Source: Halichondria panicea
Lineage: Eukaryota; Porifera; Demospongiae; Suberitida; Halichondriidae
Length of the DNA stretch: 64,000 nt
Direction of reading: 5' to 3'
Assembly: GCF_963675165.1 (NCBI RefSeq)
Contig: NC_087386.1
Span: 794,931 to 858,930, forward strand
Position 1 is the stretch's first letter, and each line of letters begins with the position of its first letter. The notes beneath the pieces were generated by a model. That model had not been told where the DNA came from. It was given only the letters and a program-made list of their open reading frames with translations, and did no database searches. Positions 49,415-53,688 of this stretch are shown here, one piece after another. The position numbers were made by a program, and so were the translations under genes.

Positions 49415-49898
49415 AGAGGACAAACTCTCTAGCTTCATTTTATGAGTGTGGTTGTTTCAAATTAAGGCTTTAGTTTCTATTTACGATCATGTATTATGCC
49501 AAGAAATTATGCTTCTATATTATAACCTACAGTTGTGTAAAGGAAACGTAAATTTATTAATAGTCAGAAACAATTTGTTGTACCTGTGATAGATATCTCA
49601 GGAGTATAGATTTGCTGGCTTATGATCAGTAATAATATGCATGAGAGGACTAGCTAGCTGTAATTATAATTATAGGTCATAATTATTATGTCCCCATATA
49701 ATATAGCTAGTTTGCAGTGTATTGACCAGTCACTTTTCAATATTATTATGTCAGAATAGCACACGAGCAAGATACAGAATTCTAGGTACCTGTATTTTCA
49801 ATGATAGAATGAAGTTGAAAACGAAATAATAAAAAGCTTATGACATTAGCAGAACAAAGTGATTATGAAGGATCTGACAAATAGTATAGAAAATTAAA
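49415..49898. other. Convergent intergenic, PTPA / IER-like
   Basis: 484 bp of AT-rich sequence with both 3' UTRs. Multiple ataattat motifs. No gene seen. Confidence 0.5.
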
Positions 49899-50819
49899 CT
49901 AACATGCTAAGATTGGTTGGTACTGTGGGGAATGAGAAAAGGAAAAGTGATTTTCAATTTGATCACAGTCTCTGTCTGTTTGGGGCCATCCGTTATCGGA
50001 TGATGAGCTTTGTTGTGAAAAGGCACTTCCGAGCATGTACGTTAACAGAGGAGCGGATTGTAGGTTCCTTGGAGATAGGTAGCCATCAAATCCAGGTAAC
50101 GCCTCGAGCTGACATCCTTCTACGGTAGAAGGCTTGAATCTCTTGGGTTCCTCTGACCACACTTTATCCCAGGGTAGAAAGTTCTCTTTGTCACTTGAAG
50201 GAAAGGCTACCTTGTGGTTTCGTTTTCCAGGAGACTTGATTGATGAGTCACTGTCTTGTGATGATTGGTCATTCCAACTGTTTCTCATACTGCTCAAATT
50301 GCACTGCCAGGTAGACCAGGGCTCGTTTTGTGTATTTGCGAAGGATGGGGTTTTTCTTAGTTTCTTTGTATCGCTTGATAGTAGTGACCGTGCCGACGAC
50401 TCTTTTGAATGAGTAGTCATTGTCTCACATAGAACATTATTCAAAACTGAATTGACACAATCCATAGGCTCTTCTGCGACTATATTATGTTCTTGCCTTG
50501 CAAAAGCTGCCGACGCGATAGGGCTGGTTTGTCTCCATAGAGTTCTCACAGGCCGAAGGGGGCCAACGGATGTCTCGTTACTTGTTAGTATTTCATTATC
50601 TTGATTTATACTGGCCAGCAGCTTAGATGAACTTGTCAGATTCGAGGGGGGACTTCTTATGAATGAGAGATGGGCCGATGTGGCTACTTCTTGGGCTTTG
50701 TTGAGTATTTTAGACACAAGTAGAGTTCTTCTTAGTGGCAAATCTCCAGACTTATGTATACTCTTGAGTTTAGTGAGGGATACCTCTACAATCCTGTTCG
50801 CTTCCAAAAAGCCTTCCAT
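49899..50819 (-). CDS. IER2/IER5-type immediate early response protein
   Basis: Single exon, 306 aa. The first 50 residues fit the IER2/IER5 family N-terminus: MEGFLEANRIVEVSLTKL, then LPLRRTLLVSKILNKAQEV, against human IER5 MEFKLEAHRIVSISLGKI and LHKNLLVSLVLRSARQV. The middle is Ser-rich with a basic segment (GKRNHKVAF, KRFKPS). A C-terminal YMLGSAFSQQ may match the family's IFGSSFSGL box. IER2 and IER5 are growth-factor and stress-induced nuclear proteins; IER5 works with PP2A on HSF1. Vertebrate family genes are also intronless. The upstream region has a TATA box, CArG/ETS and CRE-like motifs, fitting rapid induction. Which vertebrate member is closest cannot be told. Confidence 0.8.
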   Translation of the reverse strand: MEGFLEANRIVEVSLTKLKSIHKSGDLPLRRTLLVSKILNKAQEVATSAHLSFIRSPPSNLTSSSKLLASINQDNEILTSNETSVGPLRPVRTLWRQTSPIASAAFARQEHNIVAEEPMDCVNSVLNNVLCETMTTHSKESSARSLLSSDTKKLRKTPSFANTQNEPWSTWQCNLSSMRNSWNDQSSQDSDSSIKSPGKRNHKVAFPSSDKENFLPWDKVWSEEPKRFKPSTVEGCQLEALPGFDGYLSPRNLQSAPLLTYMLGSAFSQQSSSSDNGWPQTDRDCDQIENHFSFSHSPQYQPILAC

Positions 50820-51075
50820 TTCTCTTTCTTCGTGTCCGACAACAAACTTTGACTTGACAAAATGCAGTTTTCTTTTGGCGCCGAAAATTGGGTGCTTTAT
50901 ACCCAGCGCTGCTGGCCCTTAGCAACAGTGACCTAAGGAATTTGAGATATCACCCTCAAACCACACACTTCCAAATAAGGCCCTTGTAAACAAGTTCACA
51001 CAGGAAATTACAGTTTGCATAACGCCCCAGAGGTCCCTTTGAAGCTTACGTAATGAAAAGGTAATTATGACGTAA
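50820..51075 (-). promoter_or_regulatory. SRE/CRE/TATA promoter of the IER-like gene
   Basis: Read on the minus strand: GTATAAAG at 50895-50902; CCTTATTTGG, a perfect CArG box, at 50971-50980 with an abutting GGAAGT ETS half-site (50967-50972); and CRE-like ttacgtaa (51046-51053) and tgacgtaa (51068-51075). This matches the logic of vertebrate immediate-early promoters (SRF plus ternary complex factor plus CREB). Motifs are seen; function is inference. Confidence 0.65.
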
Positions 51076-51366
51076 TGAGGCGGCACTTTGGTGGGTGTGC
51101 CGACACACCCATTATTTTCTTGCAGAAAAAGAGGGGTGGAGCTCATTCATACTTGCCATGCGCAGTACTTGCAGAGATTGCAGCCAGTAACTTGGGATTT
51201 ACCCAAAGTTCTTAGACGGGATGTTGAATCACATGTTTCTCTACTTGAACTTCAGTTCTTGTCTGAAAAGACTGTCATTATATCCAGCTGTCAGTTGAAT
51301 TGAAACAAAGACCTGGGGACTTGATCATCAAGAGTTAGTTCAATACTTGATGGTTCACACCCAACA

Positions 51367-53688
51367 ATGGCATTGGATCCTGCTGACTGCTCCCTGTACG
51401 AGGCTCCTGCTTGCTTCAGGTATGCTCTAACACGAGCACTAGAAGGAGCATATTCAGAATACACACCAACTAACTGGAAGGGTTTCGCAGAATACTTCAT
51501 GATGAAGCTGACATCTTGTACATCCACCCCCGAAGAGCTTGTCAACTACTGGACAGACCACCATCCTTGTAAGCATTCTCACAATATCAACTCGATAATG
51601 AAGTTTGCTCGACACAGTCATCACAAGATACTCCTTCAGAAAATGCAGTGTCTACTATCAGGTAATAATTGTGATCTATATTGAAATAGAGTGAATAATT
51701 AGTTCAGATATACATAATGTGGTTATTTTCCCCACTTACACAGTTCCAATTGTCTTTGTTCGGTATTTCCCTCAACTTCATTGTTAATGTAAATGTTCTT
51801 AGGCATTAGTGACTGCTTTATAAAAATTCAGAACACCTTTACTTGCTGTTTTTAGTTTAATAGCAGGAGTGTATGAAGTGTCTTCATACAATAGTAATAG
51901 TTAGAATAAACTGAAAATAGTCATACTCACCCTCCTGGGAAGTGTGTGTTTGTAATGAACCATTATATTAAACAATCGTCTCAGTATGTCATGTGCTACC
52001 TCATTGCAGATCACCTGGTAGCTAACTACAAGCAAAAGACTACATCTCGCGAGTGTCTCACCCACTGCGAACTTTGTGCTGGCTGGGACAGTACCGATCG
52101 TCCACTCGAAAAAACAAAGTGTGAGGCTCAAGATGAACAAACCAGTGAGAAGAGCTCCTGTAAACATCAGTGCATTAATTACAATGGACCAGTAACTAAC
52201 CATATCTACAACTTGAGAAAAGAAGACTTGAAGATGATCGATTCAGATAAACCTGAAGCTACGCTATCGCACGCCCACACCACAACGTGTTTGCAATCTC
52301 TGAAATCTGAGGAAAGTCCATTACTAGAAACATCACTTAAGTCAAACACTGAAAGACAATGTACGAGAAAATCGAACTCAAAGGAAAATTTAAAGTGTGA
52401 AAATCAAGCAGACATTATCCAAGATACGGGTAATCGATTATTTAATGTTTTCCCATACCGTCAATTTAGAACATTTTATCGCGGCAAAACAAAGGAATTG
52501 ATACGAATTATCGTTGTAATCTATCTTCTCTATCAAGGCCTGGCTGTTATCATAATGAGCCTCTGTGAAAATGGAGGACTTTTAGTCGTTTTCAAAGCAA
52601 ATGAAACCGATCAGTACGCTGCTCTTGTGTGTCGGTTGATTTCCTTCACGCTTCGTTTTCTCCTAAGAGTTGTAAACCCTCTCTGCTTCTCTCTACACAT
52701 ACCGATAATAGCCTCCAAACCTAACATTCCTAAAGTAGGCCTATCTCAAGTACAAGCACTTCCACAAATGTTTAAAGTACACGAGAAATTCTCATCTGAA
52801 GAAGAGATTGCTGAACTTCGAAAAAGCCCTGAAACTGTTTTCAAACGATCAGAAGAAATGACAAAACGTCGAATTAAAGCGATCTGGATCCCAATGACAA
52901 ATGCAGCTTTCATTGTAGCTCTGTTGCTGTACCTCGGGGCATTTCTGCTGTGTGAGAGCCACACCATACAAGGAGGAGTATGCAACAGTCTTGGTCGAAC
53001 TATTCTCACCGTACCTCTCGTGAACGTTCGTATTCATTTCCTCATTATCATGGAGAGCTTCTCTGTATTTGTCTCATTGCTGCTAGCTGGAATAGCCGCA
53101 AACTGTTACTACTACGAGAACGCAATTGCTAAATATGCCACCACAATTGGTGCAAATGCCGAGAGTCTTCACTGTAATGTACGCCGTCGATGGGCCATAA
53201 TGGACTTCTATACGATACTAGTGCCACTGGTACTAACAGCAGTTGCTCTGCTTTCGTTCAGCACTGGTCAACCTTTCACCCCCATGCCTACACACCAACT
53301 GGAGGCCAACAAACTAGTGGATTGGTATTTTTGGATAATTAACTTGACTGTTTTACAGTTCCTTGGATTTTCATGTAATCGAATGATGAAATCGGCATGT
53401 CTTTGCGGTTATGTTCTGTCTGCTGTGTTTGTGTATTGGCTGGAAGTGGAGGTATCTATGGCACCGTATGGAAGTATCCTGCTTCTAGTGTACTGTGTAC
53501 TTTCTGCAATTTGTTTCAACCTGTTGTATAGTTTGTGTATGTGTAATTTATGTCATGCTCTAAAGACTGGATCTTTGTGCAGCTATGTGTGGTTTGTTTA
53601 CTGTGTTTTTAGCCTTTTTCTGTTAACTGTGAGTCTTATAGTTACTGTCTACAGAGAAGTAGCTCATATTTCTCTGCATATATTATAG
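51367..53688 (+). CDS. Polytopic membrane protein with possible death-fold N-terminus
   Basis: Two exons, 51367-51661 and 52010-53688, giving 657 aa. Residues about 20-95 resemble a death-fold helical bundle: NWKGFAEYFMMKL, TPEELVNYWTDHH, INSIMKFARHSHHKIL. Residues about 96-260 are polar and Ser/Lys/Cys-rich. From about 262 to the end there are eight or nine hydrophobic segments (IIVVIYLLYQGLAVII, FIVALLLYLGAFLLC, FSVFVSLLLAGIAANC, YTILVPLVLTAVALLS, LTVLQFLGFSC, LLLVYCVLSAICFNLL, FSLFLLTVSLIVTVY). No family recognised; the membrane part could be a receptor or transporter of a sponge-expanded type. The start has a fair context (acaATGG) and is the first ATG in frame. Divergent from the IER-like gene with 547 bp between start codons. 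Confidence 0.75.

Follow-up and report, generated by a model that had tools for sequence, protein, structure and literature searches.

In the c-fos promoter an SRE is followed by a CRE and then by the TATA box, and the mouse gene Ier2, also known as pip92, encodes one of the IER-type proteins, which act on the mitotic phosphatase PP2A-B55. Serum induction of pip92, like that of c-fos and egr1, depends on the SRE (PMC516031, in the part of the paper available). The contacts of IER2 with B55 involve K17, L30, L34 and the stretch S33-S37 (available part of PMC11446282). In a ctenophore, Fos, Jun and ETS genes are induced within minutes of injury, by a control given as unknown in the accessible text of PMC10876535. 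When MRTF is activated in the sponge Ephydatia, the genes that rise include SRF (PMC9287330, from the sections available). A literature search brought up no account of CArG promoters at IER, Jun or actin genes of sponges, which is not proof of absence.

Here we analyse an IER-like gene in a 64-kb stretch of the genome of the sponge Halichondria panicea (hereafter the window). This gene has an on-switch of the same kind as the actin, SRF and Jun genes of the sponge itself. Such sharing suggests a very old switch; part of its mammalian version seems to be missing.

The IER-like gene and its upstream region

The genome searched comprises 131 Mb in 39 contigs, and its SRF, Jun, Egr-like and ETS genes are of animal type. 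The features of the locus are the following (window coordinates; negative positions are relative to the ATG).

49553..49558, minus strand: AATAAA, beginning at base 341 past the stop codon of the IER-like gene
49899..50819, minus strand: IER-like coding sequence, 306 aa in one uninterrupted frame, single-copy in the genome
50682..50819, minus strand: N-terminal 46 residues, IER5-like, predicted helix-loop-helix (low confidence)
50873..50887, no strand assigned: TTTTGGCGCCGAAAA, 15-base E2F-like near-palindrome
50895..50902, minus strand: TATA box GTATAAAG, its TATAAA starting 82 b before the ATG (-82)
50966..50972, minus strand: GGAAGTG, the ETS half-site of the initial annotation, its GG common to the CArG box
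50971..50980, no strand assigned: perfect CArG box CCTTATTTGG, candidate SRF site, starting at -161, 79 b before TATAAA
50986..50992, minus strand: TGTTTAC, forkhead-like, beside the CArG box
51015..51022, minus strand: TTATGCAA, third C/EBP-like site
51046..51053, no strand assigned: TTACGTAA, bZIP-type palindrome, at -234
51068..51075, minus strand: TTACGTCA, half-CRE bZIP-type site, at -256

On the strand of the gene the order from 5' to 3' is TTACGTCA, TTACGTAA, CCTTATTTGG, GTATAAAG and the ATG at 50819. The C/EBP-like, forkhead-like and E2F-like labels of TTATGCAA, TGTTTAC and TTTTGGCGCCGAAAA follow consensus sequences that we assumed, and TTACGTAA is presumably of the C/EBP/PAR type and not a full CRE. 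The near-palindrome TTTTGGCGCCGAAAA would lie at the transcription start if transcription begins about 30 b past the TATA box. The two bZIP-type sites each adjoin a 9-base direct repeat, ACGTAATGA on the plus strand, with a spacing of 22 bases. Just upstream of this pair lies a perfect 8-b inverted repeat (TGGGTGTG/CACACCCA, 4-b loop, 51092-51111).

All motifs named in the initial annotation are present inside 50820..51075, among them the perfect CArG box and the TATA motif, and the gene appears intronless as proposed, in that its frame is uninterrupted. The observation thus stands, subject to two corrections, which concern the overlap of the ETS half-site with the CArG box (see below) and the number of palindromes. 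Two CRE-like palindromes had been reported; there are indeed two bZIP-type sites, of which only TTACGTAA is palindromic, TTACGTCA being a half-CRE, and the full CRE, TGACGTCA, is absent. The interpretation is partly supported, as set out in the sections that follow.

A genome search with the IER-like gene returned its own locus as the only match, with no paralogue in the 39 contigs. Its promoter DNA is also unique (one match), which rules out a repeat origin. Past the stop codon, the listed AATAAA is the only AATAAA or ATTAAA in the 700 b read, and an AU-rich decay element is not apparent, as the single ATTTA in the first 350 b (0.5 expected) is not beyond chance. Rfam and tRNA searches of the window found nothing.

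Taken one by one, the motifs hardly exceed chance in the window. CArG boxes are fewer than expected by chance (2 against 4.3 in shuffles) and TKACGTMA is near chance (5 against 3.1), while GTATAAAG is a somewhat common octamer there anyway (6 against 2.4, a count reached by 1 of 100 shuffles). Their joint clustering in about 260 b is unusual: 3 Mb of Markov sequence yielded 213 CArG boxes, and in the 120 b on a side of these boxes we found one TKACGTMA at a single box and two at none. Because the motif set was chosen after the sequence had been read, we do not rest the case on this cluster.

Similarity of the N-terminus to IER5

The gene had been described as of IER2/5 type, and this description holds for the N-terminus of the protein. 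When its first 52 aa were compared with the PDB, a single chain matched, human IER5 in its complex with PP2A-B55 (8uo5_D, E=0.0013; E=0.035 with the full-length protein). Residues 1-46, of which the first ~45 are recognisable, align to human IER5 from Met1 to Met1 with a score of 78, which none of 20,000 shuffles reached (maximum 55). In this alignment the sponge protein keeps the residues corresponding to K17, L30, L34 and S37 of IER2, which contact B55 there, and has T in place of S33.

In Pfam the N-terminal 52 aa have IER (PF05760) as their best match (E=0.024, 15.3 bits, below the cut-off of 22.6) and SERTA as the second-best (E=0.034, 14.3 bits, below the cut-off of 25). The full-length protein gave no Pfam match, its C-terminal 84 aa matched no family, and no similarity was found beyond the first ~45 residues. 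A search of the whole genome with Pfam IER returned nothing, and is uninformative because its 14 controls returned nothing either. The structure predicted without an alignment has a mean pLDDT of 39, with a helix-loop-helix at the N-terminus at ~60; a PDB fold search with it found nothing below E=5 and is not counted as support. Relatives were sought in two further collections, where none of the pattern matches could be confirmed (13 in genome contigs, 1 in viral contigs). By its putative docking module the protein is IER-like; by Pfam score it is not a formal member of the family.

CArG and TATA boxes at expected SRF targets

We examined CArG usage within the Halichondria genome, at genes where the SRF system is expected; actin promoters with a CArG box are natural targets of the MRTF-SRF programme. 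Six of eight genes have a CArG box no farther than 300 b from the ATG (or first Met): all three conventional actins with a located 5' exon (at -160, -195 and -188, with CCAAT boxes), one of two SRF genes, Jun and the IER-like gene, with none at the Egr-like gene. The SRF gene on contig C15 has the CArG box CCTTATAAGG at -243 and TATAAA at -132. In the Jun gene the CArG box is CCTTTTATGG, located at -267, and TATAAA follows at -153; this gene is identified by a Pfam Jun-like match and was chosen for its long open frame among ten bZIP matches, the other nine of which the CArG count leaves out. TATAAA is also present in two of the three actins, actin A having none in 600 b. The distance from the start of the CArG box to TATAAA is thereby 79 b in the IER-like gene, 92 and 87 b in the actins, 111 b in SRF and 114 b in Jun, that is, in five of the six CArG genes. 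The pair of bZIP sites is absent from the actin, SRF and Jun promoters.

No CArG box was found in the stretch read upstream of the SRF gene on C13, whose first exon is uncertain, in the 3.2 kb upstream of the first Met of the Egr-like gene, upstream of either of two divergent actin-like genes (L028, L031), or at the Arp-like loci L021 and L022 and the MEF2-like locus L006, where the 5' ends are not fixed. The Egr-like gene itself (L084/L091, C2:5857400-5861850) has 80% identity to human EGR1 zinc fingers. The MEF2-like MADS gene (L002/L006, on C7) contains two similar MADS-box pieces split by a very long CACACA repeat.

The background density is 17 CArG boxes in 274 kb (pooled from 21 loci, the window and the sequence flanking 40 CArG+AAGTG sites, not counting the focal site itself), or p ~0.018 per 300 b. 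Six of eight then corresponds to a binomial probability of 1e-9, a value to be read loosely, given that paralogues are not independent (two of the three conventional actins share a contig and may be paralogues) and that inclusion of the two divergent actin-like genes brings the count to 6/10. None of five tubulin upstream stretches (~430 b each) has a CArG box, a control weakened because three of the five end, by eye, in an apparent splice acceptor just before the ATG and so seem to begin behind a 5'-UTR intron. Since the CArG box recurs at actin, SRF and Jun genes and is found in 0/5 tubulins, and since SRF and MRTF are encoded, the CArG box of the IER-like gene is very probably a real SRF site.

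Candidate partners of SRF

SRF is encoded twice (L003/L076 on C13 and L004/L077 on C15), and the exon on C15 matches human SRF with E=3e-15. An MRTF gene on C17 has three RPEL matches, two of them above the cut-off, and one frame there combines a SAP domain (E=9e-11) with the stretch QKYRKLRYHEYVPPTK, which we take to resemble the SRF-binding B1 region of MRTF. The genome has 8 ETS domains, a count from which introns could hide another gene, and 10 bZIP domains. Six of the ETS domains were compared with the PDB and had ETV1 (three times), ERG, ETV6 and FLI1 as best matches; none is nearest to ELK, with ELK-4 (2e-22) close behind ETV6 (4e-24) for L013. The other two, L007 and L008, are ETS1/2-like by eye. 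In about 1.5 kb read on each side of the ETS loci, where introns could hide a B-box, a strict B-box-like expression had no match and a looser one matched a single stretch, MHSGVF at L011, which we judged unlike a B-box.

The ETS half-site said to abut the CArG box is present as GGAAGTG, yet it is not separate from that box: on the gene strand CCTTATTTGG continues directly into AAGTG, and the two bases GG belong to both. The genome contains the composite CArG+AAGTG 43 times, where CArG density predicts 14-30, and the reversed pattern 8 times. We rejected it as an enriched composite on account of this expectation and because some matches are near-identical copies. Among the 41 of 43 sites read (the IER-like gene and 40 others), TATAAA lies 60-100 b downstream only at the IER-like gene and at three tandem paralogues. 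These three (L041, L042, L043; C1:16.66-16.68 Mb) have a secreted-looking 222-aa ORF, and each carries CCATAAAAGGAAGTG or CCATTAAAGGAAGTG about 600 b upstream with TATAAA 85 b after.

An early gene driven by MRTF-SRF is favoured over one driven by TCF-SRF, as judged from the genes and sites found: MRTF is encoded, six ETS domains are not ELK-nearest, GGAAGTG shares the GG of the CArG box, and the composite is near its expected number. The rise of SRF with MRTF activation in Ephydatia fits the CArG box in the SRF promoter on C15.

A CArG-TATA promoter class and its alternatives

We think it probable that the core promoter of the IER-type gene belongs to one CArG-TATA class with those of the actins, one SRF gene and Jun, and is driven by MRTF-SRF. 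The CArG box would be bound by an SRF dimer some 80 b ahead of the TATA box, most likely together with MRTF, which responds to actin dynamics and to signals of the Rho type; an ELK-type ternary complex factor is the less likely partner. On the TTACGTMA pair, bZIP proteins may supply stress or cAMP input. The gene would then be transcribed rapidly and under the control of SRF, and the small protein that it encodes is predicted to dock on PP2A-B55 by its N-terminal helix-loop-helix. SRF occupancy, MRTF as the partner, fast induction and B55 binding are what we infer from sequence.

The initial annotation had read into these motifs the control logic of vertebrate immediate-early genes. In its full form, this would have SRF and an ETS ternary complex factor on CArG/GGAAGTG and CREB on the CRE-like sites, with ERK and cAMP as the driving inputs. 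The CArG box, GGAAGTG, half-CRE and TATA box do lie together in 260 b, ETS and bZIP genes are at hand, the ctenophore genes respond to injury in minutes, and in the SRF promoter on C15 a GGAAG stands apart from the CArG box, at 33 b from the start of that box. We nevertheless regard such a promoter as unlikely: the ETS domains compared and the B-box searches gave no clear ELK-type factor, the ETS and CArG sites overlap by two bases, the full CRE is missing and the Egr-like gene has no CArG box. That CArG and TATA boxes recur at the genes for actin, SRF and Jun supports the SRF half of the proposed logic. Neither the ETS/CRE half nor the dating of the whole to the earliest animals yet has such internal support. 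A cell-cycle promoter, in which E2F at the start site drives the gene in proliferating cells and the CArG box is incidental, would explain the 15-base TTTTGGCGCCGAAAA where transcription should start, and would suit a protein that acts on a mitotic phosphatase. It is improbable too, since TTTTGGCGCC occurs twice in the window, the site at 50873-50887 included, the E2F consensus is an assumed one, and the CArG-TATA spacing common to actin, SRF and Jun would be left unexplained.

The sites could also serve the neighbouring gene, which stands head-to-head with the IER-like gene (ATG at 51367, plus strand), in which case both genes would share as promoter the 547 b that separate their start codons. 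The TATA box, and its spacing from the CArG box, are directed at the IER-like gene, which makes this very unlikely. The neighbour (51367-53688, plus strand) encodes a protein that looks to span the membrane several times, apparently in two exons, and a Pfam search with it had no match. A chance cluster of motifs without function would accord with the window counts of CArG and TKACGTMA and with a motif set selected after reading, and is just as hard to credit, given that CArG and TATAAA recur independently at expected SRF targets.

Beyond the class of promoters favoured above, we put forward more tentatively, as a possibility short of even chances, that the CArG-TATA module (CArG 80-115 b before TATA) joins actin, SRF, Jun and an IER-type regulator of PP2A-B55 in one SRF regulon of an early-branching animal, which would have been run by actin and MRTF at first, with the ERK-TCF arm and Egr genes joining later. 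If so, wounding or contraction would be the original 'serum'. The link of SRF to fast-response genes (Jun, IER), beyond the cytoskeleton, would be as old as the split of the sponge and vertebrate lineages, and one could then test, at defined sites of a single animal, which of the partners of SRF was the earliest.

Comparison with known systems

Like vertebrate IER2, IER5 and IER5L, the sponge gene has an uninterrupted frame, an IER N-terminus from Met1 and a CArG box and TATA box near the gene; unlike in these, only the first ~45 residues of its protein are recognisable. SERTA-domain proteins (CDCA4, SERTAD) have the same kind of B55-binding helix-loop-helix (PMC11446282, as far as available), and the sponge protein scores slightly higher with IER, to which it aligns from Met1, than with SERTA. 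The motifs had been said to stand in the order of vertebrate immediate-early promoters, which the comparison with c-fos contradicts: here the bZIP sites are outermost, the placement of the ETS site differs, and no TCF partner was found among the six ETS domains compared. The presence of SRF and MRTF genes is shared with the contractile and actin programme of Ephydatia muelleri, in the report of which (PMC9287330) the main text contains no occurrence of 'CArG', 'motif', 'binding sites', 'Fos' or 'Egr'. Unlike in that report, so far as its available text goes, in Halichondria the IER-like and Jun genes use a promoter design of the actin type.
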